From Sycobia sp. Sy_11 (taxonomy: Eukaryota > Arthropoda > Insecta > Hymenoptera > Epichrysomallidae): a stretch of DNA of 64,000 nucleotides. Both the position numbers and the translations under genes were made by a program. The notes below the pieces were generated by a model. That model was not told where the DNA came from. It was given only the letters and a program-made list of their open reading frames with translations, and did not search any database. Below, piece by piece: positions 6,210-59,088 of this stretch. The DNA lies in the NCBI GenBank assembly GCA_018907035.1, contig JACCIC010000223.1, positions 682,001-746,000 of the forward strand. The letters run 5' to 3'. The stretch's first letter is position 1. Each line of letters starts with the position of its first letter.

Positions 6210-6263
<54 letters not shown>
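6210..6263. repeat. (TA)n microsatellite abutting the mariner 5' end
   Basis: An uninterrupted TA dinucleotide tract that ends exactly where the mariner terminal inverted repeat begins. This is consistent with TA target-site preference. Confidence 0.95.
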
Positions 6264-6266
<3 letters not shown>

Positions 6267-7112
6267 GGTGGATTGATAATTTCCCGGCCTGACAAAGAGC
6301 TGGCACCACTAGGTCTACCTTGAGGTGACGTTCTATAAGACCAAACTTAGACAGCTATAGTTTCAATCCCATCGCCATATTAGTTTAGGTTTGCTAGTAC
6401 GCTGAACAAGACGCCACTGTGTTGTTCTTAAAAATAGAAAAGCTAGAAAATCGTGCTGCCATCAAATACTTTTATTTGAAGGGGTTAACACCGAAGGAAA
6501 TTAAAGAAGAGATGAACTCAACACTGGGACATCCTCCTCTTCATATTCAACCGTGAAGCAGTGGGTTTCCGAGTTTTAAAAGGGTCGTGTGAGCACCTCT
6601 GATGAGCCTCGCTCAGGACGCCCCATTGAGGTCACAACTCCAGTTATTATCGAAAAAATTCATCAAATAGTGGTGAAAGTCCGCAGATTAAGAGTGCGTG
6701 AGTTAGCTGAGACCTGTAAGATGTCATATGAACGTGTACAAAATATTTTGCAGCAACATTTGTTCATGGAAGAGCTCTGTCCAAGATGGATGCCGCGTTT
6801 GCTAACAGTCGACCAAAAATTGAATCAACAGAACATTTCTACCGTCAATTTGGCATTATATAAGCCTAATCCAAGCAAATTTTTGCGTTGATTCGTAACC
6901 GTTTACGAAAATTGTGTCCAACACTACACTCCTGAAACCAAACAACAGTCTAAACACTGGAGTGGGCCAGGAAAAACAACTGGAAAGACGGCAAAAACAA
7001 TCTTTTCGGCGAACAAGGTTATGCCTACTATTTTTGGCATGGAAGAGGTAATATATACATTGATTACGTTGAAAATAGTAAAACTATCACTCGTCAATAC
7101 TACGCAGACTAA
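6263..7112 (+). mobile_element. Mariner element copy 1, 3' truncated
   Basis: It starts with the terminal sequence GAGGGTGGATTGATAA, the same 5' end as the complete copy at 57825-59090. Homology runs collinearly through most of the element but stops near 7112, just after the segment encoding the region between the first and second catalytic aspartates. Beyond that point the sequence is gypsy-derived, so the 3' third, including the right TIR, is missing. Tc1/mariner elements of this kind move DNA by a DD34D transposase and duplicate a TA target. Confidence 0.85.
6434..7112 (+). pseudogene. Mariner transposase remnant, copy 1
   Basis: The initiating ATG of the second copy is ATA here (6434-6436). 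The frame is broken several times. An open segment at 6589-6891 encodes the helix-turn-helix-containing N-terminal half (residues around RVRELAETCKMSYERVQNIL). The codon for the first catalytic Asp, just before the HYTPETK block, is TAC (Tyr) at 6904-6906. The second and third catalytic residues are deleted. It cannot encode an active DD34D transposase. Assignment to mariner is firm; the subfamily is not resolved. Confidence 0.85.
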
Positions 7113-16915: not shown

Positions 16916-17837
16916 ATCGGGATTACCATGTCTGCGAACCGCGAGATTGCGTGGAGTTCGATCGCAAAACGGAGCGACGATGAGCATAGGATCACTCTTT
17001 CTTATTCCTGCGCATTCGGTCACGGAGAATGTAGTACCGTACAGCACCACGTTATAACCTAAAACCATAGCCCCGGACACTGAGAGGCCAGCTCGCTCGA
17101 CTTTTCCGATCCACCACATTTCAGCACCAAGTACAGGCAAGAAGGCTCTTGCCACCCATCGTGCAGCCCGAGACGTATTCACGTCTCCCTGGCCGTCGAG
17201 GACATCCTCGGCATCGCCGCACTCGAGTCGGAAAGAGGTCGAGAGACGCAACCAGAACCGACGCCGTCGACGAGCGAACGTGCATGAGAGAAAGAGCGAA
17301 CCGCTCAAAACGAACGAGCGAGAGGGAGAGAGGAAGGGCGAAAAAGACAGCTGCAGCTTCCTCATGGTAAGTAGTGTTGCCTTATTTATATTGTTATTGT
17401 GTGTCGCTATTCAGGCTGCCTTCGCCCACCGTCGCTTGCATTGTTATAAAATTTGCGAAGTCCGTGATTCGCGTAAACGACTGTTCTCGTCATAATTGTT
17501 CCCTCGCGTGTCCGTTTCCGTATCATTTCAATGTTCCCGTCTAAGTCTGTATCGTCCCGCATTATATTAAAGCTTTCCCACGCGTCGCTGAACCTGCAAG
17601 AACTGGGTAGCCCGCGAGCTACCGTATCATATTGTAAGGCGCTTTAGTATTGTTAAGAAATACATTGATAATATTGTTATTTGCCCCAAGTTATTCTTTC
17701 CGTGTTCCCCCTGTTCCCCGTTTCATCCGGAGCTAGCGTGTGTGCGCAATCAAGCACATACATACACATACAGGCAGATACGGCTACGTGAGTAAGCCGC
17801 TATACACGATATGTGTAATGCCAAAACTGACGTTCCA
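16916..17837 (+). repeat. Gypsy-3 5' LTR
   Basis: Collinear with 30552-31559: shared blocks include GGACACTGAGAGGCCAG, GTCTCCCTGGCCGTCGAG, TGTCGCTATTCAG, TGCCTTCGCCCACCGT and GCTAGCGTGTGTGCGCAAT. It ends CGTTCCA just before a PBS-like sequence. Short ORFs across it on both strands are by-products of GC content. Confidence 0.85.
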
Positions 17838-17839
17838 AA

Positions 17840-30485: not shown

Positions 30486-31559
30486 TGTGACGATCGTTTT
30501 CGCGGTCGTGTATTTTCGCGACTTCAAAACCACTGCTCTTGCGCGATCGGGATTACCACGTTCGCGAACCGCGAGAGTGCGCGGAGTTCGAACGGGAAAC
30601 GGAGCAACGAAGAGCATAGAAGCGTTCTTTCTCATCCCTGCGAATTCCATCACGGAGAGTGTAGTACTGCACAGCACCATGTTCTAACCTAGAACCACAG
30701 CCCTGGACACTGAGAGGCCAGTGCGCTCGACTTTTTCGGTCCACTACATCTCGACACCGAGCTCAGGCAAGGAGGCTCTTGCCACCAACCGTGCAGCCCG
30801 AGACGTTTCCACGTCTCCCTGGCCGTCGAGACATCCTCGGCATCGCCGCAATGGAGTCGCGAAGAGGTCGAGAGACGCCGCCAGCACCGAGGCCGTCAGC
30901 GAGCGAACGTGCAAAAGAGAGGGAGAGAGAGAGAATTAGAATTAGAATTAAAATTATATTTATTAGAGCCTAAGGACTAGATAAAAATGAGGCAATCCAG
31001 TTAAGCGAAGCATCAGAAAAACCAAAGAGAGCGAACCACCTTCAGCGAAGGACGCCGGCAACGACGAACGAGAGAGAGGGAGAGCGGAAGGCGAATAAGA
31101 GAGCTACAGCTTCCTCGCGGCATGTACTTTTGCCTTAATCTATTGTTATTACATGTCGCTATTCAGACTGCCTTCGCCCACCGTTGCGTGCATCGTTATA
31201 CATTATGCGAAGTCCGTGATTTGCGTAAGCGACCGTTCCCGTCATAATTGTTCCTTCGCGTGTCCATTTCCATATCGTTCCAGTGTAACCGTCTAAGTCA
31301 GTATCTTTCCACGTTGTATTATAGATTCCCCACGCGTCGCCGAACCTGCAAGGAGTGGGTAGCCTACGAGCTACCGTATCATATTGCAACGAGCTTCAGT
31401 ATTTGACCCGAGTTATTCTTTTCGTGTTCCCCCTGTTCCATGTTTCAGTCGCAGCTAGCGTGTGTGCGCAATTAAGAACACACACAGACATACAGGCAGA
31501 TACAGCTACGTGAATAAGCCATTATAAACGGTAAGTGTAATGCCAAAACTGGCGTTACA
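30486..31559 (+). repeat. Gypsy-3 3' LTR
   Basis: Starts TGTGACG and ends CGTTACA, near-perfect short inverted termini; 1,074 bp. Collinear with 16916-17837 apart from a roughly 90-base insertion near 30935-31030. A (TA)n tract follows immediately, so the TSD cannot be read. Confidence 0.85.
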
Positions 31560-31560
31560 A

Positions 31561-32016: not shown

Positions 32017-32214
32017 TTATTAGCTTAATCTGTGTTGCTAAGCGCTCCTCAAAAGACAGACGGTTTGCAATTTTACCTATCCTGAAGTGAACGTGATCCT
32101 GGTTGCGAGGCGCCCCTCAAAAGTCCAGCCGTTCTCTTATTCTAATTAAATTACTGTCCACTTAATTTTTGATCCTGGTTGCAAAACGCTCCTCAAAAGA
32201 CCAGCCAAATTAAG
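32017..32214 (+). repeat. Three degenerate 54-nt hairpin units
   Basis: Units at 32017-32070, 32085-32138 and 32161-32214, each exactly 54 nt, are reverse-complement relatives of the gypsy-5 LTR units. The third pairs perfectly at its ends (CTTAATTT with AAATTAAG), the second at 7 of 8 positions, and the first has lost its outer stem. Confidence 0.75.
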
Positions 32215-33266: not shown

Positions 33267-33450
33267 ATATATAGTTTAAGTTAATTTATTTCTTTCATTT
33301 AAGTAATTATTGTCGTTTTGTTGTTTGTTTGACAATCTTCTCAAATAAATAGTTCAATTGAATAAATTTTTTTTTTATTTTTGTTGTAAAAAAATATACT
33401 GTGTTCTGTTAAATTATTTTCCTGATCCGCCGGTCTGATTCCGAATATAC

Positions 33451-33862
33451 ATCCTCCAATCTCAAATTACCCTGGAAAAATACCGCGTAAGCTATCCCGA
33501 GGGGGATAGGAACGTTAGAACTTGTTTTTCAACGCATAGTGATTTTCTTAAAATGCTTTCATTTCAAATTGTTGAGAAAATTGATGATAAGTTTTGCAAG
33601 ATGGATCTGATATTTATCTTTAAAAAGACCCAGTTATGATGGGTAATTACTGTTAATTTATTAAATCAACACAGCAGATCGATACAAATCTGTTGTAGTA
33701 ATGAGTGCGAGGTTCATTATAAAAAAAATTACCACTTCAGATACGTTGGGTAGGTTTCTAGTTTAACTTCCCTTCAAAACTACTGATGTCGTTTGTAACG
33801 TTCCTATCCCCCTCGGGATAGCCTACGCGGTATCTTCCCAGGGTAGTTTTGAGAGGGGAGGA
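33451..33862. repeat. Palindromic pair of ~66-bp arms around a 280-bp loop
   Basis: 33451-33516 and 33796-33862 are inverted copies sharing CTATCCCGAGGGGGATAGGA and a flanking TACCGCGTA-G block. CTATCCC/GGGGATAG also makes a small hairpin inside each arm. The arms directly touch the two opposite-facing LTR sequences on either side. The AT-rich loop has no gene. Confidence 0.7.
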
Positions 33863-34201
33863 AGTTTTTCAGGATTGGACGGCGGTTTCAGGAAAATAAT
33901 ATTACACGAACACAGTATATAATTTTTTTATAACAAAAAATATAAATTTATTTACGAAAAAATAAATCAGCTCCTCTATCTACAGGATTCTGAAACAAAT
34001 CAATATAAACACAAAAAATAATTAATAAAGGTAAACTATAGCCAGATCTATATATTTATTTGTATAAATTTTGCGCTATTTTCCGCAATGCCTCTAATAT
34101 TCGGCGCTAGTTTCCGCACGAATACCCGGTGTTATTTTCCACGCGGGGATTTAATGAACCGAGACAGGTTGATTTGAAATGGAATAAAAATAAGGAAAAA
34201 A

Positions 34202-34546
34202 CTTAACTCCGCTGGTCTTTTGAGGAGCGCCTCGCAACCAGGATCAAGAGTTAAGGGGAGAATTTCTGTTTCGGATAAGTAAACTGCTGGTCTTTTGAGG
34301 AGCGCCTCGCAACCAGGATCACGTTTACTTAAGGATAGGTAAAGTTATTAGCCGTCTGTCTTTTGAGGAGCGCCTCGCAACAGAGATCAAGCTAATAACT
34401 TCGGAGAAATTGGTAAATGTAAGGATAAGTAAACTGCTGGTCTTTTGAGGAGCGCCTCGCAACCAGGATCACGTTTACTTCGGAAAGGTAAATTATTAAC
34501 CGTCTGTCTTTTGAGGAGCGCCTCGCAACAGAGATCAAGTTAATAA
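34202..34546. promoter_or_regulatory. Array of five 54-nt covarying hairpins in the LTR
   Basis: Units at 34202-34255, 34277-34330, 34345-34398, 34427-34480 and 34493-34546. Each has an 8-nt outer arm, 2 nt, a 5-nt inner arm, an invariant 20-nt core (CTTTTGAGGAGCGCCTCGCA), the inner partner, GATCA plus one base, and the outer partner. Outer arms are CTTAACTC, AAGTAAAC (twice), TTATTAGC and TTATTAAC; each is perfectly matched by its partner. The inner stem is CTGGT/ACCAG or TCTGT/ACAGA. The core itself can pair GAGG with CCTC. The paired segments vary while the unpaired core does not. Role unknown: RNA structure, packaging or regulation are possibilities. Confidence 0.85.
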
Positions 34547-35253
34547 TTTCGGAAAGGAAAAAAGTCAGGATTAAATCGAGCTCTGGAAAAGGTATTAGCT
34601 CCGGGAGGAGTTCGTGTGAAACAACTTCGGGGCAGTTGGTTCACCGGGCGAACTGCCGATTTTGCCTTTTGCGGGCCTTTTTATAGTAAAATAATCGGAT
34701 AATTCCGTCGCCGCTCGTTTAATTTCGGATGAGGCGCCGAATTATAATAATTATATTAATAATAACAATAATTATAATAATAACAATAATAATCAATAAC
34801 AGTTATAATATTCAATAATAATTATAACAATTATTATTTTGTATTTCGTTATTATTTGCAGCCTGTGTGCTGCGCACAATAATAATACACATATACACAA
34901 GTTTAAATATTTATATACATATATTTATACATTATGTGTACATTAAATCATTTGTTTTAGTTAATTTAATTAAATACAGCGGGTGCATTCGTTTTCGGAC
35001 ACCCGTTGTATATGCTGGTATTCGCGCGTTCGCTACATTCGTTGCGGCTCAGGCTGCTCAGTGAGAGCGTGTAATAGTGTGCGTGCGGCATGTATTAGAG
35101 GGGATAGCGGCCGCCGGTCTAATACATTGAACGCGCGTTCTATTGCCGCGCGCAGTGTATCCCCTCTACGGCATACGCTGTACTTGACTTAGTGGTAGAG
35201 AGAGAGAGACTAGATATCGCGTTCTCTCTCTACTTGTTCGAGTTTCGGCAGTT

Positions 35254-35283
35254 GCGACGACTACTTTCTTCAGTAGTCGTCGC
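35254..35283. promoter_or_regulatory. Perfect 12-bp hairpin in gypsy-5 LTR
   Basis: GCGACGACTACT, a 6-nt loop TTCTTC, then AGTAGTCGTCGC. Conserved unchanged in the other LTR at 42287-42316. Confidence 0.85.
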
Positions 35284-35537
35284 GACCTTTGCCCGGTTTT
35301 CGGTGTTTATTTGGTATATACGCGAGTCTTAATTTAATAATTATAGAAATAATATGTTTAATATATTATTTCTAATAATATTCGATATTCTTTCTTGTGA
35401 AGTTTATACATCTAATTCCGTGTATGTATTGTAAAATACATCCACCAAATTAGATGTAATACTATCTTAAATTTTAACGTGTAAAATGAGTCCTTTGTTC
35501 GAAATAAATTTGCGCGGCCATGTTTTTGGCCGTCGCA

Positions 35538-35552
35538 TCTCCCTCTTTTTTC
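35538..35552 (-). other. Polypurine tract of gypsy-5
   Basis: The minus strand reads GAAAAAAGAGGGAGA directly before the 3' LTR start TGCGACGG, the standard position for plus-strand priming. Confidence 0.85.
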
Positions 35553-35832: not shown

Positions 35833-36318
35833 CTAAATATATTGCAGGCTAGAGAAAGTTTGTACTGTTCGCAATAATGTTATGTGTGTATAAAAAATGT
35901 GTCTTAAAAAAAATAATGTGTGTGTTTTTTTTTTTTTTTTTTTTTTCCATAGAACGCGAAATCCGATCTTGTTGATTTCTGCCATACCAAAAATGATGTC
36001 CACGGGCTGGTCTGGGACTATGGCGAAATTACTCATCCTGGTTTTCTCTTTGCAGGTGTATTCCACCTCCAGCGTATATGTAGACATAATGTTGACGGGA
36101 TCAATGGTGTATAACGGGTCCCGGTTAAGATGGAGAACCGCTTCCCCGTATACACGCCGAGCACCACGTCGCTCAAGTATCCTGCCGATTTCTGCTGACG
36201 CCGTGGTCATCAGTGTCCCAGTGTTAATTAGTGCATGGAATGGCAGTCCATAACATTTGATAGGAACACTGAGTTCCAGGAATTGACGGCAGAGTTCTTG
36301 TTCGACGGGGTGCTGCAT
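35833..36318 (-). CDS. Gypsy-5 ORF3: retropepsin-like protein, Asp to Asn
   Basis: 161 codons starting MQHPVEQELC, 45 bases after the pol stop and on the same strand. Residues 13-36 (FLELSVPIKCYGLPFHALIN then TGT) and a later NFAIVPDQPVDIIFGMAEIN look like the active-site strand and the ILGM-type closing strand of a retropepsin, at about the right spacing. The catalytic position (Asn32 in INTG) is Asn rather than Asp, which would abolish proteolysis. The C-terminus runs into a Lys stretch encoded by an A tract, so its end may be altered. It could be a captured or duplicated protease domain used for dimerisation or binding; function unknown. It is not similar in detail to the element's own protease. 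Confidence 0.6.
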   Translation of the reverse strand: MQHPVEQELCRQFLELSVPIKCYGLPFHALINTGTLMTTASAEIGRILERRGARRVYGEAVLHLNRDPLYTIDPVNIMSTYTLEVEYTCKEKTRMSNFAIVPDQPVDIIFGMAEINKIGFRVLWKKKKKKKTHTLFFLRHIFYTHITLLRTVQTFSSLQYI

Positions 36319-36363: not shown

Positions 36364-39300
36364 TCACGGTGGTATCTTATCTAGATTGTTATATCTTTTA
36401 CGAAGATCCTTGATATGAATATGTTTAATAATTTGACCTTTATTATCTTTCAGGTCGTATATAACAGGCGATACCTTCCTGAAAATAGTATACGGACCCA
36501 GATATTTTGGAGCTAATTTTGCGTTAAACGCGTCTAATTTATTAGATAATTCGTGTGAACGTTTATATACATAATCGCCGATTTCCGGGTTCGATTTTCG
36601 ACGGTTTTGATCATAGTAATGTTTTTGTTTTTGAAAACTCCGAGCTAATTGACTTTGTACAAGTTCTATTGTCTCTTGTATTTTTTTTATCCGATTCTCG
36701 GCTGTAATATTACAAGTTTGACCAAATTTTTGGACAAGAGACCCGGGTGCTCTTAATTCTCTTCCAAAATTTATGTAAGCGGGTGTAAATCCCGTTGTTT
36801 CGGATGTAGCGGTATTATATGCGAATTGTAGCTCGAGTAAATAGCAATCCCATGTTCTATGATTTTTCTCTATGTATTGAGAAATCATGGTTTTTATTAC
36901 TTTATTTGCTCGCTCTACTGGATTACACTGCGGCGTATACGGTGGTGTTTTTCTGTGAGTTATTCCAGATTTTGATAGCATTTCCGTAAATTCTTTTGAC
37001 ACGAATTGTCGTCCATTATCGGAAATTATAATTTTCGGGCATCCAAAACGTAGAATGACTTGCTGTTTAACTGCCAGCGTTATAGCTTCGGCAGTCGCTT
37101 TTCGTAAGGGTTTTAATTCTACCCACTTTGTTAATTTATCCTGCATGACTAACAGCCAGGTGTTCAATCTTGACGATCTTGGGAGTGGTCCTATAAGATC
37201 AACGGCCACGATATCCCAAGGCTGTTCGACTAACGTCGCATGCAATTTTCCAGCCGGTGATTGTTGTTGAGATTTAAATTGATGACAATTCTCGCAGTTT
37301 CTTACATAGTTTGTAGTCATCCGGAGCATTCCAGGCCAGTAATAACTTTTGGATATCTTCACCAGAGTTTTCGAAATTCCTAGATGACCGGCAGTAGGAT
37401 CGTTATGTACTTCGTTTAGTACTCTATGTTGCTCGGATTTCGGTACACAGATCTTCCATTGCAAATTTTCACTCGTATCATTGAAGTCTAATGTGTGTAA
37501 AATATGCTTATATAATCTGCCATTAATGATACAAAAATCGGGGTAGTTTTCAGGATCACTCTCCACATTTTTGTATATTTTTTCGTACCAATCTGCTATT
37601 TTAATTGTAGTTGCTTCGACGGCTAGCGGCTGTCGAGATAGAGTATCGGCTAATAAATTATCTTTACCAGGACGATATTTAATTTCGAAATCGTACTGGC
37701 TTAATTCAAGTGCCCAGCGGGCTAATCGACCGGAAGGATTCTCTATGTTATTAAGCCATTTCAGCGATTGATGGTCGGTGAGTACAATAAAATGATATCC
37801 TTCAAGATAATCTCGAAATTTCCACACACCCCATTTAATTGCTAGACATTCTAGCTCAGTGGCGGAATAGTTTTTTTCGGCTGGGGAGAGTGTTCGACTT
37901 GCAAAGGCGATGACTCGTTCGTTGTTCTCATATGCTTGAGTAAGCGCAGCTCCCAATCCTTCTTTACTGGCATCCGTTTGCAGGATAAACGGACGGCTCC
38001 AGTCTGGACAGGAAAGGATGGGTGCGTTTGTGAGAAGCTGCTTGATTTTGTCAAATACATCTTGCTCGGTTTCTCCCCAGGTCCACTTAGCTTTTTTTCT
38101 AGTAAGTCGATGTAGTGGTGCGGCAACATTCGAGATATCTTTAAGAAATCGTCTGTACCATGATATTAGACCCATAAATCGCTGAATTTCTTTCATGTTT
38201 TTCGGTGGTGCTAAATTTAGTACAGCAGCCACCTTTTCCGGATCGGTTTGTAGACCGTTTTTGTCTACAATATGTCCTAAATATTTTAGACTTGAGCGGG
38301 CGAAATGGCATTTATCCGGATTAGGTTTTAATTTCGCTATTCTTAATCGGTTGAAAACTTCTTTTAATTTTTGTAGATGTTCCTCAAACGTAGACGAGAC
38401 TACTACGATGTCGTCTAGATATGCGAAAGCATACGGAGCCATTTCTGGAGTAATCACTCTGTCTAAGAGTCGTTGGAAGGTAGCCGGTGCTGAGTGTAAG
38501 TCAAACGGCATTACATTGAATTCATATAGGCCTTTTCCGGCGACGGTGAACGCAGTGACAGGACGGCTTTCCGGTGTTAGAGCTACTTGCCAATATCCAT
38601 TTTTCAAATCTAATGTGGATAGATATCGGGCTCCTCTTAGCTTGACTAGTGTAGCATTAATTTGTGGAAGAGGATAAGCGTCTTTCTTTGTAACTTTATT
38701 TACTTTTCTGAAATCCACACAGAATCGTGCTTTGCCGTCCTTACTTTTTACAATAACGACTGGTGAACTCCACGGACTGTTTGATGGTTGAATTACGTTT
38801 TCGTTTAGCATTTTATCAACTTCCTGATTGATGATTTCTTGCATGGCCGGATTTCTTGGCCGATATTTCTGTTTAATAGGTGTTTTTTCTTCCACGACGA
38901 TTTCGTGTTGCAGGAGCGGAGTAGGACCTTTGATAAAGTTAAATTTATCCATCTCTGTTTTTAAAAATTTTTCTAATCTCTGACGTTCGGTGGGATTTAA
39001 ATTCTGTAGTCCGTACGGTGTATCAATTTTACATACTTGATGTATTTGATTGTTTATTGATTTATTTATTTCACAGTTGTTTAATATTATACGGATTTCA
39101 AGTTTTTTTAGAGTATCCATACCTAAGAGCATAGGATGGCTCAATCCATTCATTACTAAAAATTTTTGTTGGAATCTTTTTCCTTGTATATATATTGGTT
39201 CATAAATATTTCTTCCAAGGCTTATTTCTGAGCCATTTGCCAAGACTGCAATTCAATTACTTGGCTCAGTATGCCATCCGAATTTCATACAGATTTCACT

Positions 39301-39486: not shown

Positions 39487-40574
39487 TCACGAGTGTATAC
39501 ATTATCACGACCACAATATGAACAAAAGATCTTTTGCTGGTTTGTGCACTTAAAACGATCGTGGCCCGTTTGTTTGCACTTCCAGCAACACTTAGTTCGG
39601 TCGTATACTTAAGCAATTTTGTTGTTAAAATTATTTACTCGGATCTCCGGTTTTCTTGTTTTATATTCTGGTGTGGAGGTGTGATTTTTCGTAATTTTCT
39701 GTCTCTCACACTGTTTTTTGGTTTCCAGATACTCTTCTACTTGTTGGACGATATCTGACGTTGTTTTGACGTCATCACGACGAATATGTAATCTATATTC
39801 AGCGAGCATATTGTAGTACATCGTTTCGGTTTTCTGTTCCTCCGAAAAACCTCCTCGACGTCTCATTAGTGTAATTAATGAATTATCAAATGCACGGATG
39901 TCTTCATTAGGTTCTTGTACACGATTATGAACCTGTCGATCAAGATTTCGACGTTCGCTAGGTGACAAGTAGAATTTTCTCAACCCTTCTTCTAATTCCG
40001 AGAACGTTTTAAAATTTAAGGCATAATTTCTATGCCATAATTGTGCATCACCTCGCAATAGTTCCGGGAATCCATTCAAAATTTGTTGTTCGGATAAATT
40101 ATATGCTCTTTTCAACTCATGGATCCTTTCGAGGAAAGAGTGTAGGTTTTTGCCATCAAAGTGACAATTCCACTTTCTCATTTGGTCCATCACTTTGGCG
40201 TTTTCTTGTGCAGCCGATGGTTGTTGCACGTATACAGTAGCAGGCGGAGTGCTAAAAGGTGTGTTCGCAGCTTGGTGTACCACGACTGGACTGGACGTTG
40301 ATGCAGCTGCTTGTTGGTTTAATAGTTGTATACGTAATTGACGAAATTCTTCCTCAATTTCTTCAAGATCTTGAGTTCGATTTACATCTTCGTTGAAGTC
40401 TTTTTCGTCTTCTGGTTTGTCGAAAAAGAGCTCCGGGTGAGCTCGTACATATGAAATTAAATTTTGTCGCAAATACGCTTTTGTACCTTCTATTGGTAAA
40501 TTGTTTTTAACGAGTTCTCTTTCAATTTGCTCTTTCGTTAGTTTATAGATCCAGCTTACGCGTGGTTTTGCCAT
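39408..40574 (-). CDS. gag: Gypsy-5 Gag with one in-frame stop before nucleocapsid
   Basis: ATG at 40574 (MAKPRVSWIYKL) after an AT-rich leader. 321 residues of N-terminal and capsid domains (WNCHFDGKNLHSFLERIHEL; LRGDAQLWHRNY; FYLSPSERRNLDRQVHNRVQ, the last typical of the gag capsid) end at a TAA (39609-39611). The same frame continues 66 codons to a TAG at 39408-39410 and encodes two knuckles, CWKCKQTGHDRFKC and CSYCGRDNVYTRDC. Because the knuckle region is in frame and intact, the TAA looks like a point mutation or a readthrough site. Gag assembles the particle and binds RNA. Confidence 0.85.
39423..39468 (-). promoter_or_regulatory. -1 ribosomal frameshift signal (gag/pol, gypsy-5)
   Basis: On the minus strand: slippery heptamer GGGAAAC (39468 to 39462) in the register G_GGA_AAC of the gag frame, a 7-nt spacer, then a perfect 9-bp GC-rich stem GGGCCGAGC/GCTCGGCCC with a 14-nt loop. 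Slipping back one base leads straight into the protease frame, 52 nt before the gag TAG. This is the classical retroviral layout. Confidence 0.85.
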
Positions 40575-40900
40575 TTTAGCAAGATTTGAAATGTATATAT
40601 ATATATAAAAAAAATATACTGTGTAATATTTTAATTCTTTCTGAGATGGAAAAAATAATTCCTTTTTATTTTATTTATAAGAAAACTATTATCTTAGTTT
40701 TCTATTTTCAAAACGATAAAATTTTAAATAAATTTCGATTTGTATTACTTCGTGCTTCGGCTCAACCCGCCTTAGCACCTAGTCGCTCAGCCCGCCACTA
40801 GGCTCTTTTCACACAAATCGAAATACGGTTTTTTATAAACAATTAAAAAATTTCCGCTTAAAGAAATTATTCTGTAATTTCAGAAATAATTCAGGATGAT
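40575..40900 (-). other. Gypsy-5 leader between 5' LTR and gag
   Basis: AT-rich except a GC-rich centre. ATTTCGATTTGT at 40732-40743 pairs perfectly with ACAAATCGAAAT at 40813-40824, enclosing about 70 bases rich in GC. A structured leader could serve packaging or translation control. No clear tRNA-complementary PBS was recognised next to the LTR. Confidence 0.5.
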
Positions 40901-42570
40901 TCAGGATTGGACGGCGGTTTCAGGAAAATAATATTACACGAACACAGTATATAATTTTTTTATAACAAAAAATATAAATTTATTTACGAAAAAATAAATC
41001 AGCTCCTCTATCTACAGGATTCTGAAACAAATCAATATAAACACAAAAAATAATTAATAAAGGTAAACTATAGCCAGATCTATATATTTATTTGTATAAA
41101 TTTTGCGCTATTTTCCGCAATGCCTCTAATATTCGGCGCTAGTTTCCGCACGAATACCCGGTGTTATTTTCCACGCGGGGATTTAATGAACCGAGACAGG
41201 TTGATTTGAAATGGAATAAAAATAAGGAAAAAACTTAACTCCGCTGGTCTTTTGAGGAGCGCCTCGCAACCAGGATCAAGAGTTAAGGGGAGAATTTCTG
41301 TTTCGGATAAGTAAACTGCTGGTCTTTTGAGGAGCGCCTCGCAACCAGGATCACGTTTACTTAAGGATAGGTAAATTTATTAGCCGTCTGTCTTTTGAGG
41401 AGCGCCTCGCAACAGAGATCAAGCTAATAACTTCGGAGAAATTGGTAAATGTAAGGATAAGTAAACTGCTGGTCTTTTGAGGAGCGCCTCGCAACCAGGA
41501 TCACGTTTACTTCGGAAAGGTAAATTATTAACCGTCTGTCTTTTGAGGAGCGCCTCGCAACAGAGATCAAGTTAATAATTTCGGAAAGGAAAAAAGTCAG
41601 GATTAAATCGAGCTCTGGAAAAGGTATTAGCTCCGGGAGGAGTTCGTGTGAAACAACTTCGGGGCAGTTGGTTCACCGGGCGAACTGCCGATTTTGCCTT
41701 TTGCGGGCCTTTTTATAGTAAAATAATCGGATAATTCCGTCGCCGCTCGTTTAATTTCGGATGAGGCGCCGAATTATAATAATTATATTAATAATAACAA
41801 TAATTATAATAATAACAATAATAATCAATAAGAGTTATAATATTCAATAATAATTATAACAATTATTATTTTGTATTTCGTTATTATTAGCAGCCTGTGT
41901 GCTGCGCACAATAATAATACACATAATACACAAGTTTAAATATTTATATACATATATTTATACATTATGTGTACATTAAATCATTTGTTTTAGTTAATTT
42001 AATTAAATACAGCGGGTGCATTCGTTTTCGGACACCCGTTGTATATGCTGGTATTCGCGCGTTCGCTACATTCGTTGCGGCTCAGGCTGCTCAGTGAGAG
42101 CGTGTAATAGTGTGCGTGCGGCATGTATTAGAGGGGATAGCGGCCGCCGGTCTAATACATTGAACGCGCGTTCTATTGCCGCGCGCAGTGTATCCCCTCT
42201 ACGGCATACGCTGTACTTGACTTAGTGGTAGAGAGAGAGAGACTAGATATCGCGTTCTCTCTCTACTTGTTCGAGTTTCGGCAGTTGCGACGACTACTTT
42301 CTTCAGTAGTCGTCGCGACCTTTGCCCGGTTTTCGGTGTTTATTTGGTATATACGCGAGTCTTAATTTAATAATTATAGAAATAATATGTTTAATATATT
42401 ATTTCTAATAATATTCGATATTCTTTCTTGTGAAGTTTATACATCTAATTCCGTGTATGTATTGTAAAATACATCCACCAAATTAGATGTAATACTATCT
42501 TAAATTTTAACGTGTAAAATGAGTCCTTTGTTCGAAGTAAATTTGCGCGGCCATGTTTTTGGCCGTCGCA
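40901..42570 (-). repeat. Gypsy-5 5' LTR
   Basis: Near-identical partner of 33868-35537. Contains the second copy of the hairpin array (41234-41287, 41309-41362, 41377-41430, 41459-41512, 41525-41578) and the 12-bp hairpin (42287-42316). Ends at 42570 in GGCCGTCGCA on the plus strand. Confidence 0.95.
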
Positions 42571-55265: not shown

Positions 55266-57824
55266 CTTGTTCCCGACTCCCATCCTAACGCCATTTTTAA
55301 TTAGTGTTAGTTAATATATAAGAGCATAGATTAAGATAGTGAGAATAAATGGCGCATGAGACTCAAGCGTGACAATAATGCACGGAAATTCATTTTGTAT
55401 GAGGGCTATCGGATGTATAGGCTACTGAAAGTATAGACTACCGGATGTATAAGCTTCCGAATAATTGTGGAATAAAAAAACAGTATAAATCTCGAATAAA
55501 CAACATGTTCATGGAATACACACATTTGAACCCTGCTCATACCTTCACAGCTAACCGAGCTCATGTGAGAGAGTGATATACAGAATGCAAAAGGAAAAGG
55601 TGTTGAGGCCCCGACGCGGAAGCCTCTGGCGCCTGGGTATTAAAGTAAAGGATTGATCCCGTCGGCTGTCTAAAGCTTTAAAGTGGACTACCATCCGGCT
55701 GTGGTCAGACCGGATCAAATGAAAACAATTACAAATGGCGTTCATCAATCTAAGTGTGTATACTATAAATGCGTCTTTCTAACTATTTGTAGATTATAGT
55801 TTTCACCTTTCTCATTATCGTTCTCGCATTTTATTGAATTGTATATTGCGAGTAAATTATTAACTGATAAGCATAAAATTAGGTAAATTATAATTCAAAA
55901 ACATGAAAATCGTAATAACATAGAAATAACTAATTATTATTAGAAAATAATTAATTGACTACGCGTTGTCAATTAAATGTAGTTATCGGGATCATTAAGC
56001 CAAAATAAGGATATCGAAAATACTCGAATAAAATAATGCGGAAAATATAATAAATTAATTGTGTACAAAAAAAGTAGCAGCAGGCGATTTATACCAACGG
56101 GAATTGTTAGAAGGCCTATTCATTTCTTCTCTCTATCGGTCTTCCTTTGCGTTAAAAGCTGTACTCCCGCACGTCATATCCCCCGTTTTCATCTATTTTA
56201 ACACAAAATCTATTAAATAATAATGCAGTGATAGCTACGTTATAACAGGCTTTGAGCACAGACCTTAAGGAAACATGAAGTCCAATAAAAGAAATATTAA
56301 ATTTGGAACTCAGCAATAAATACAATTTCTAACATACCACAACAATATACGGGAATAATTCCGCGAAATAATATAGTTAACCCTTTGGATTCACAAAGCA
56401 AACCATAAAGCAAATAATCACATTCATTATAATTTGCCTTCAAATAATACCAGAATTCGGCAAACAAATACACAAGGCTACCGACTAAACATAACCAACC
56501 AACCGACTACCTACCAAGATCGTTGGTGTTCAAATAACTAAGCAAATAAATATTTACCCTCGGATTATAGACTAGAATATTTAAATAATACTGTACCTCA
56601 TGATCCAAATACCATCCCAAATTATCCCCCATTTCAAACAATTGATATATTGAATATTTTCGAAAAAATCAAAAATGCGAACCATATGCCACCAAGTTAT
56701 AGAAATTCCATTCCTTTTCTTAACTTTTCAAGTATTTTGATATGTTCTTTGTCATAGTTTAAATAATAAAATGTTTAAAACCATGATGATTTATAAAAGT
56801 TCTTCTGCAATACATATTTATAATATACATTAACCATAACATTATAATAAATATAATGACATGAAATTATTAGGTATATAATAATTATTGTTATAATACT
56901 TCATATATCTCATAATATCTTGAATTACGTGCGTCTCGAATTGTTGAAAATCGTCTGTTCGCTCGTCTGTATGGCAGACATTGTACTTCCGACAACATAC
57001 GATATGACCGTTTTTGTACTTAAATATCTTCTGAAAATTCTCTGACACTTACATCTGTTAAATAAATATTGCGTCAATTTTAATCCATTATATTACTTCT
57101 AATTATGTTTAATAGAAAACTATTCCATTAGACGAAGCTTCAAAAAAGGGTTTATGTTTAAAAACTTTTAATACATTAAAGTTATTATGTAGTGAATTCT
57201 TTTTACTCTTTTTTCATTATCTTTCTAGTTATTTAATTTTGTCCATCCGATGAATACGTACTAGATTTGTGTAATTTCCGGCATTAAATAACTAACGTAT
57301 ATATGTATATATTCTATTATTATTACGTGGTGCATCATGGGTTCAGTAGCGTCACGAAATTGAGTTTGAAGGTTAGGCTATTAGAATTTTATACAATATA
57401 ACCAAATACTAACGAAGATAGCCTTTTACATCAAAACACTTCTTATGGGCACGTATGTCATTAAAAAAACTAGTTTGCCTTAATCCGTAGAATGGCGGTA
57501 AAATTAAATTTTGATGGATAAATATCAGCTGTTAATTAGGTTTTTCCAATAGTCAGGCACGTTGCTGGAACTTGTTATTCATTGCTACATGGAAAGAAAG
57601 AATAAGTTTTCCTTGTAATCGATTGCATAAATAATCAGTAATAAAAGTATATGTTAAGTTAACTAATATAAAAAATTCTAGAAAATAAACGTATAAATAA
57701 ACGATTAATAAAATGAAATGTTCTAAATTTTTTTAATTAAAATTAACACAAAATCAATTATGAAATTAATTAAGAAATAATCACAGGACTTAAAATATAT
57801 TTACGAAAATATATAACGGACATA
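55264..57824. other. AT-rich region, no gene
   Basis: Likely contains the unbounded 3' end of gypsy-4 (AATAAA-rich piece near 55340-55510) and then AT-rich DNA. The short open frames on the minus strand (55551-55748, 56842-57048) show no family motif. Confidence 0.45.
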
Positions 57825-59088
57825 TGAGGGTGGATTGATAAGTTTCCGGCCTCATCAAGAGATGGCACCACTAGGCCTATCTTGAGGTGACGTTCTATTG
57901 TACCATCCTTAGATAGCTTATAGCTATAGTATCAGTCCGATCGCCATGTTAGTTTAGGTTTGAGAGCACGCTAAACAAGACGCCTCTGTGTTTTTCGTAA
58001 AAATGGAAAAGCTGGAAAATCGTGCTGTCATCAAATACTTTTATTTGAAGAAGAAATGGACTCCATACTGGGGACATCCTCTCCATCATATTCAACCGTT
58101 AAGCAGTGGGTTTCCAAGTTTCAAAGGGTCGTGTGAGCACCTCTGATGAACCTCGCTCAGAACGCCCCATTAAGGTCACAACAACAGATATGATCGAACA
58201 AAATCCATCAAATAGTGCTGAAAGATCGAGATTAAAAGTGCGTGAGAGAGCTGAGACGTCATTTGAATGATGTCATTTGAACGTGTACAAAATATTTTGC
58301 ACCAACATTTGTATATGGAAAAACTCTGTGCAAGATGGCTGCCGCATTTGCTAACAGTCGACCAAAAATTGATTCGAAAGAACATTTCTACCGCCGATTT
58401 GGTGTTGTATAAGCGTAATCCAAGCGAATTTTTGCGTCAATTCGTAATCGTTGACGAAACTTGGGTCCACCACTATACTCCTGAAACCAAACAATAGTCT
58501 AAACAGTGGATTGGATCAAGGGAATCAATTCCAAAGAAGGCAAAAACAGTTTCTTCGGCGAACAAGGTTGTGGCTACTGTTTTTTAGGATAAAAGAGGTA
58601 GTATATACATTGATTACCTTCAAAAGCGTAAAACTATCACTGGTAAATACTACATAGACATATTGTAACGTTTGAGCCACGAAGTGAAAATTAAACGACG
58701 TCATCTGGAGAAGAAAAATATCTTGTTTCATCACGCTAGCGCATCAGCGCACACGTCAATCGTTCCGATGACCAAAATCAACGATTTGAAGTTTGAATTC
58801 ATGCGGCACTCTTCTTACTCTCCAGACCTAGCCCCGAGTGACTATTATCTGTTTCCTGACTTCAAAAAATGGCTTGGCGGTAAGAGATTTGTGGACAATG
58901 AAGTAATCGAAGCTGTAAATGGGTATTTTGAGGAACTTGACAAATCAGTCCATAGAGATGGTATTACTAGACTAGAACACCGCTATAAGAAATGTATCAG
59001 CCTTGTAGTAGATTATATTGAGAAATCAAAAAAATTCTTAAAAACGTTGTTTTTCTTAGTCAGGTCGGAAACTTATCAATGCACCCTC

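Follow-up and report, generated by a model that had tools for sequence, protein, structure and literature searches.

The 64,000-nucleotide (nt) stretch of Sycobia sp. Sy_11 DNA analysed here (contig JACCIC010000223.1, positions 682,001 to 746,000; the window) contains a retrotransposon whose two long terminal repeats (LTRs) each carry an array of five short hairpins. With its LTRs, gag, a pol gene in the order reverse transcriptase, RNase H, integrase, and a polypurine tract, the element belongs to the Ty3/gypsy type (Metaviridae). Because gag, pol and the polypurine tract lie on the minus strand, the element RNA bears the reverse complement of the window letters, and the hairpins are described here in that sense (Table 1).

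Each unit of the window array is exactly 54 nt long and forms a perfect hairpin enclosing a 20-nt core; in RNA order it consists of an 8-nt arm, (U/G)UGAUC, a 5-nt inner stem, UGCGAGGCGCUCCUCAAAAG, the other side of the inner stem, two nt and the second arm, and the outer arm of unit A extends to ~11 bp. A preliminary description of this DNA had reported five such units with a common core, complementary arms and inner stems, present unchanged in both LTRs, and this was borne out: all five units recur at an offset of +7032, and the two LTRs differ there by a single base, which lies immediately outside a unit. Matches to the core with at most three mismatches number 13 in the window (five per LTR and three in an old, diverged copy on the opposite strand), compared with none in 100 shuffles, and a covariance model of the units, applied to the window, recovered the same 13. 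The five units represent three distinct hairpins, named A, B and C in RNA order, with A-B-A-B-C derived from A-B-C by a tandem duplication of ~148 bp. Folded as RNA, the five units gave z-scores of -3.0 to -4.0, and two of them folded as DNA gave -2.6 to -3.1 on both strands.

Exact cores occur 2,194 times in the 621-Mb genome. A set of 88 loci, from which 12 duplicates or double fetches had been dropped and in which actual or possible LTR pairs of one element were retained (the window's two, L025/L030 and L033/L034), yielded 294 units: 262 parental (A, 97; B, 92; C, 73), 20 recombinant and 12 with an unassigned arm. Arrays usually contain three or five units, with a range of one to seven. The commonest is A-B-C (43 loci); A-B-A-B-C was found in 12 loci and A-B-A-B-A-B-C in two, perhaps the LTR pair of a single element. 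The basic array is A-B-C, and the window's five units are a later duplication. A search for another inner-stem class returned 14 matches, all inside the known family, and these were read as mutations.

Orthologous units were compared between an old and a young subfamily (26 and 15 loci; a fixed difference required a 60% majority on both sides). Fixed differences affect 91 of 502 flanking positions, 6 of 48 arm positions, 1 of 54 positions in the loops and inner stems and none of 60 core positions; among the three columns outside each arm, which were not counted as arm, 4 of 18 differ. The six arm changes keep or restore pairing: B5 passed from G-C to A-U and C6 from U-A to C-G, each by changes on both sides, A7 from G.U to G-C, and B4 from U.U to U-A. 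All 24 arm pairs are Watson-Crick after these changes, an outcome matched by random placement of six substitutions in the arms of the old subfamily in 0 of 400,000 trials, or in 172 of 400,000 if G.U is tolerated and mismatches are not. The four changes of CTATTAGT/ACTAATAG were equalled by random placement in 973 of 400,000 trials. Two-sided changes at orthologous pairs comprise A1 and A8 (both in CTATTAGT/ACTAATAG), A7, B5 and C6. A third subfamily (L035 and 16 loci fetched from 39 further matches listed, two of which, C421, may be the LTRs of one element) adds C arms ATTAACTC/GAGTTAAT, exact in 8 of 17, with A-U at pair 1 in 12 of 17 (C1, another pair changed on both sides). Its B arms are AAGAGAAC/GTTCTCTT, exact in 7 of 17, and pair 4 is A-U in 16 of 17, so that pair B4 has been seen as U-A, A-U and U.U. 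The majority core is the same across all four subfamily groups. Because changes are matched at orthologous units, cores are invariant and no random placement did as well, it was concluded that the hairpins are very probably a selected RNA structure. The preliminary description had drawn this conclusion within the window, where the comparison is partly between the paralogous hairpins A, B and C; the homologous LTRs, to which it had pointed as the place to check, provide the matched changes on which the conclusion now stands.

Units in which an exchange through the core has joined arms of two classes are also informative. These recombinants (20 of 294 units, in 17 of 88 loci) have a mean of 5.0 mismatches per 8 arm pairs, compared with 0.55 in parental units, a difference that is partly definitional, as the two kinds were told apart by the arms themselves. 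In the LTR tree, recombinants are mostly isolated tips, with L052 and L062, and L013 and L066, as neighbours, and the clades are formed by arrays with paired arms. This distribution fits selection for pairing, though some of the exchanges may postdate insertion.

Statistical tests of covariation gave a more mixed picture. Alignment A1 was built from 161 units, of which 17 recombinant and 7 odd units were left out, and the remaining 137 were reduced to 99 distinct rows and supplemented with two old-copy units to give 101. In this alignment 94.4% of cells were paired, compared with 71.5% when shuffled and at most 50.5% when partners were slid, and the covariation score was 0.583 against 0.182 for shuffles; recombinants had been excluded beforehand, and the mixing of paralogous classes inflates these measures. 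A tree of 61 loci was restricted to those having all three classes, each class being represented by a single unit at each locus and the window by only one LTR of its pair; on it, the summed pair score was 160, compared with a mean of 4.7 (standard deviation 31.9) and a maximum of 129 in 200 tree-simulated alignments. The covariation across homologous LTRs that the preliminary description anticipated is thus present in the summed score but reaches E < 0.05 in only 2 of 51 single pairs, C6 (E 0.011) and B5 (E 0.013). What was found is a conserved RNA structure with compensatory changes, of modest significance pair by pair.

Besides this modest significance, several observations weigh against the hairpins as drawn. 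Two of the five measures on alignment A1 were no better than shuffles (two-sided pairs, 11 versus 11.0; further pair types, 31 versus 32.9), and many unpaired, subfamily-diagnostic columns score as high as paired ones, as subfamily splits predict; the distinctive feature of the arm changes is their complementarity, not the column score. RNAalifold on alignment A1 retained the outer arm and drew the inner and apical part differently. In a 611-nt fold, three units formed as drawn and the two B units paired with each other. The apical GAGG/CCUC helix is without covariation support and is broken in two of the three old-copy units, which themselves fold poorly (z-scores +0.5, -1.8 and -1.5), and unit B of the old subfamily retains a U.U mismatch.

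Table 1. Features of the element and its hairpin arrays. Positions refer to the window unless stated otherwise.
Feature	Position	Strand	Remarks
Hairpin unit A, first in RNA	34493-34546	-	Arms TTATTAAC / GTTAATAA; inner stem UCUGU/ACAGA
Hairpin unit B, first copy in RNA	34427-34480	-	Arms AAGTAAAC / GTTTACTT; inner stem CUGGU/ACCAG
Hairpin unit A, second copy	34345-34398	-	Arms TTATTAGC / GCTAATAA
Hairpin unit B, second copy	34277-34330	-	
Hairpin unit C, last in RNA	34202-34255	-	Arms CTTAACTC / GAGTTAAG
Five units in 5' LTR	41234-41578	-	41234-41287, 41309-41362, 41377-41430, 41459-41512, 41525-41578; from core offset +7032 and unit letters
Old diverged array	32017-32214	+	Opposite strand; A 32017-32070, B 32085-32138, C 32161-32214
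TATAAA, probable core promoter	34680-34685	-	139 nt upstream of first unit
3' LTR	33868-35537	-	99.7% identical to 40900-42570; begins TGCGACGG directly after polypurine tract
Polypurine tract GAAAAAAGAGGGAGA	35538-35552	-	Read by eye
ORF3, shortened	35940-36318	-	Weakly protease-like (NTG) part; arginine-rich tail missing in window copy
pol open frame, Ty3/gypsy type	36364-39252	-	Reverse transcriptase, RNase H, integrase (Pfam)
gag open frame	39609-40670	-	Retrotrans_gag (Pfam)
5' LTR	40900-42570	-	1666 of 1671 aligned positions same as 33868-35537
ORF3 in L118	1498-2013 of L118	-	Frame opens right behind pol stop, in pol's frame

Sequence motifs suggest that the array lies within the transcript. 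TATAAA occurs at -137 to -142 relative to the array in 62 of 88 related LTRs; in 73 of 88, AATAAA follows the last unit at scattered distances of 60-300 nt. Because the array has TATAAA upstream and AATAAA downstream, it probably lies in the repeat (R) region and hence near both ends of the RNA. Its position downstream of a conserved TATA box agrees with the earlier proposal that the array sits in the element RNA, the RNA strand being the reverse complement of the one then noted. Where transcription should start, a GC-rich inverted repeat (GGCAGTT...AACTGCC; 34631-34657, minus strand) is present, which was not formed in the 611-nt fold.

Among the best 120 of 5391 pol relatives, most share the same Pfam domains; of those named, relatives from an ant (76% identity) and a halictid bee (70%) come nearest, and a pseudoscorpion and a frog supply others at 45-48%. 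On these identities the host would probably be a hymenopteran insect. Beyond the gag stop and in frame with gag is a zinc-knuckle motif, CWKCKQTGHDRFKC (window 39609 and next bases, minus strand). No tRNA genes were found in the 64-kb window. At the end of the 3' LTR lies an inverted pair of 83% identity (33372-33520 and 33793-33946), the second arm of which overlaps the LTR, and direct repeats of 82-86% identity (16916-17838 with 30546-31560; 6260-7103 with 57822-58653) are probably other transposable elements.

A third open reading frame, ORF3, is conserved between pol and the 3' LTR. In L118 it encodes 172 residues, comprising a weakly protease-like part with NTG for DTG, followed by an arginine-rich stretch and then an acidic tail; an in-frame stop interrupts it in L117 and L007. 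A genome search with one of its two public relatives, P0121, gave 150 scored matches from 645 candidates, of which 26 of the 30 best were without a stop, lower rows being stopped more often. The ratio of nonsynonymous to synonymous differences (pN/pS) is 0.29 over 15 genomic copies (body, 0.26; arginine-rich part, 0.37; tail, 0.28), which were selected as stop-free and are thereby biased toward purifying selection. ORF3 is under purifying selection. The catalytic DTG of retropepsins is replaced by NTG in 17 of 17 copies. With hhalign, this part aligned to the N-terminal region of P0002 (E 0.0014, probability 17%), which is itself a pol relative carrying Pfam protease domains, and Pfam matches were weak (Asp_protease, 0.068; gag-asp_proteas, 0.26; one member of 12 in either case). 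Lacking DTG and having weak sequence matches, ORF3 does not classify as a retropepsin-like domain. The arginine-rich part was modelled by AlphaFold as a helix, with a predicted local distance difference test (pLDDT) of 63-70 for the block and a poor model elsewhere; to call this stretch an arginine-rich motif is our own reading. Lists compared by eye contain, in all four subfamilies, examples of ORF3 upstream of a hairpin LTR of the same orientation within ~3 kb: C21 and C91 (old), C421 and C438 (third), C1 with L011 (mid), and C2 with L034 and the window (young). Against a role for ORF3 together with the hairpins stand the weakness of its protease-like fold, as seen in the similarity to DDI1 (E 0.14 and 0.19), the low hhalign probability and the mean pLDDT of 31 and 45 in two AlphaFold models, too poor for a fold search, and the nature of the link, which is one of co-occurrence alone. 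Between ORF3 and the LTR, L118 (488-1072, minus strand) and likewise L117 contain a further frame, ORF4, of ~185 amino acids, which is proline-rich with a basic, cysteine-containing C-terminus; it is open in both, had no Pfam match in L118 and is absent from the window copy.

Because an invariant core is displayed on a stem for which only pairing counts, and is repeated in a probable transcript, the array probably functions as a protein-binding response element. The array would be present twice in each full transcript, close to the 5' end and close to the 3' end, and every hairpin would offer a protein the same invariant surface, composed of the UGAUC/C internal loop, the 5-bp inner stem and the UGC...AAAAG apical part, while the outer stem would contribute by pairing rather than by sequence. 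Several copies of an RNA-binding protein could then load onto the array, making it a multivalent response element, and the bound protein would steer the genomic RNA toward nuclear export, packaging or translation. ORF3, arginine-rich and encoded between pol and the 3' LTR, may bind the array by the logic of Rev and the Rev response element (RRE) or Rex and the Rex response element (RxRE), in which case its copies might take the genomic RNA out of the nucleus, by analogy with Rev and with the retrotransposon Cer1 (below). The alpha-helical arginine-rich motif of Rev inserts into an asymmetric bulge (PMC4488727). That ORF3 is the partner of the hairpins is a tentative proposal, somewhat more open to doubt than the response element itself; the explanation that we consider best overall, with moderate confidence, is of selected R-region hairpins serving as a multivalent response element, with ORF3 as the leading candidate partner. 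From the sequence features we infer the start and end of R, action as RNA over DNA, the binding of a protein, and the step served. A fuller version is possible but rather speculative: a Ty3/gypsy circuit like Rev/RRE, of independent origin, in which a catalytically dead protease-derived domain joined to an arginine-rich helix reads a cognate R-region hairpin array. In that version the protease-derived domain may also be the dimerising part, if the weak match is right, and the binding sites would have grown from three to five or seven in young copies by tandem duplication.

Packaging signals typically are hairpins of the 5' leader. The array might accordingly be read as a signal for packaging or dimerisation that is recognised by the zinc knuckle of the element's Gag, and not by ORF3: the zinc-knuckle motif is present in the gag frame, and identical units can pair together, as the two B units did in the long fold. 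This is unlikely, however, as the apical loop, judged by eye, is without a long palindrome, and placement in R adds a 3'-end array that packaging does not need. It is less likely still that a host RNA-binding protein reads the hairpins, through oocyte transport by Egl-BicD or constitutive export of the NXF1 type, although a cited title states that gurken and I factor retrotransposon RNAs have common localisation signals, and constitutive transport elements (CTEs) function without a viral accessory protein (PMC11379458).

Action of the array as DNA, either as a cluster of binding sites (an insulator or enhancer) or as cruciforms, is very improbable. A double-stranded DNA site would likewise keep its core conserved, and single-stranded DNA folds too, but a duplex site needs no matched arms, the array sits downstream of a TATA box, and the wobble states shared most often are G.U when read in the RNA sense. 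Rare non-Watson-Crick states, found in at most two loci, are symmetric (G.U, 28; A.C, 29; other, 102), as neutral decay predicts. States common to at least four loci include eight of the G.U type, among them the commonest (the closing pair of A in 69 loci and of C in 63; A7 in 28), together with U.U at B4 (36) and G.A at the closing pair of B (25). The sense RNA folds better than the antisense in 71 of 97 A units and 65 of 92 B units. Shared wobble states and sense stability lean toward sense RNA; five shared A.C-type states, in 4 to 8 loci each, and unit C, in which the sense strand was not more stable on average (45 of 73, p 0.5), speak against it. RNA is favoured over DNA because the array lies downstream of a conserved TATA box and, weakly, because of the shared non-Watson-Crick states, so that the earlier preference for RNA is upheld without being proved. 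Finally, functionless arm matching by mutation alone, whether by template switching (quasi-palindrome correction) or by units homogenising one another, has the recombination of units through the core in its favour but is the least probable reading, since correction would erase the asymmetric loops, which are unchanged, rare mismatches stay uncorrected, homogenisation would disrupt the arms and leave the common core free to drift, and, by our own estimate at the 18% flank rate with the three units counted as one, the chance of no change is ~0.02 for the 20 core sites and ~0.0008 for the 36 unchanged sites of core, 5' loop and inner stems.

Other readings of the loops and LTR were tried and set aside. 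K-turn, hammerhead and twister readings of the loops were weighed and dropped, and a primer-binding-site reading failed because A-class units are without the required TGG. LTR retrozymes resemble the present element in having a conserved structured RNA in their terminal repeats (PMC7761336), and differ from it in that gag and pol are present here. In Rfam, no family reached its gathering score in the window, and the 11 weak matches in the LTR included no ribozyme and no hammerhead; a self-cleaving LTR ribozyme was set aside for lack of a match to a known ribozyme family.

RxRE and the transactivation response element (TAR) are R-region hairpins of human T-cell leukemia virus (HTLV) and human immunodeficiency virus (HIV). 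Like these, and like Rev/RRE, the present system has a structured RNA, which here probably belongs to R and hence to both RNA ends, with asymmetric internal loops, and an accessory arginine-rich protein in the same element. In contrast to them, its host element is a Ty3/gypsy element and not a retrovirus, and its RNA consists of near-identical 54-nt hairpins rather than one branched element. ORF3 showed no relation to Rev, Rex or Tat, and no search was aimed at these. The array is set apart from the Rev/RRE and RxRE families as a non-member, since membership turns on protein binding, which is here a prediction from sequence. The likeness to the CTE of Mason-Pfizer monkey virus (MPMV) and the MER11 element of SERV-K lies in a non-coding retroelement RNA with a possible role in export (PMC11379458). 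NXF1 reads a CTE as a single extended hairpin, whereas the array has many short hairpins with a different loop sequence. Cer1, an LTR retrotransposon of C. elegans, likewise has an extra protein, CERV, which is required for nuclear export of its genomic RNA (PMC10309623); Cer1 differs in that CERV is made from a spliced mRNA, and the abstract of that report does not mention repeated R-region hairpins.

Exact and degenerate core patterns had no match in IMG/VR, three matches in prokaryote genomes, bacterial by title, are about what chance predicts for 19 fixed bases, and a 16-nt piece of the core from each strand was absent from the literature text searched. An array of this kind was not described in the literature searched, which comprised titles and the starts of abstracts, most subscription journals lying outside it.

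To our knowledge, pairs of a response element and an RNA-binding protein encoded by the same element are known mainly from complex retroviruses. With hundreds of genomic copies, orthologous hairpins and arrays of one to seven units, the sequence rules of the Sycobia element can be read directly. The element may govern its own RNA in a way similar to that of some retroviruses, and if ORF3 binds the array, regulation resembling that of complex retroviruses would have arisen also in LTR retrotransposons of simple appearance.
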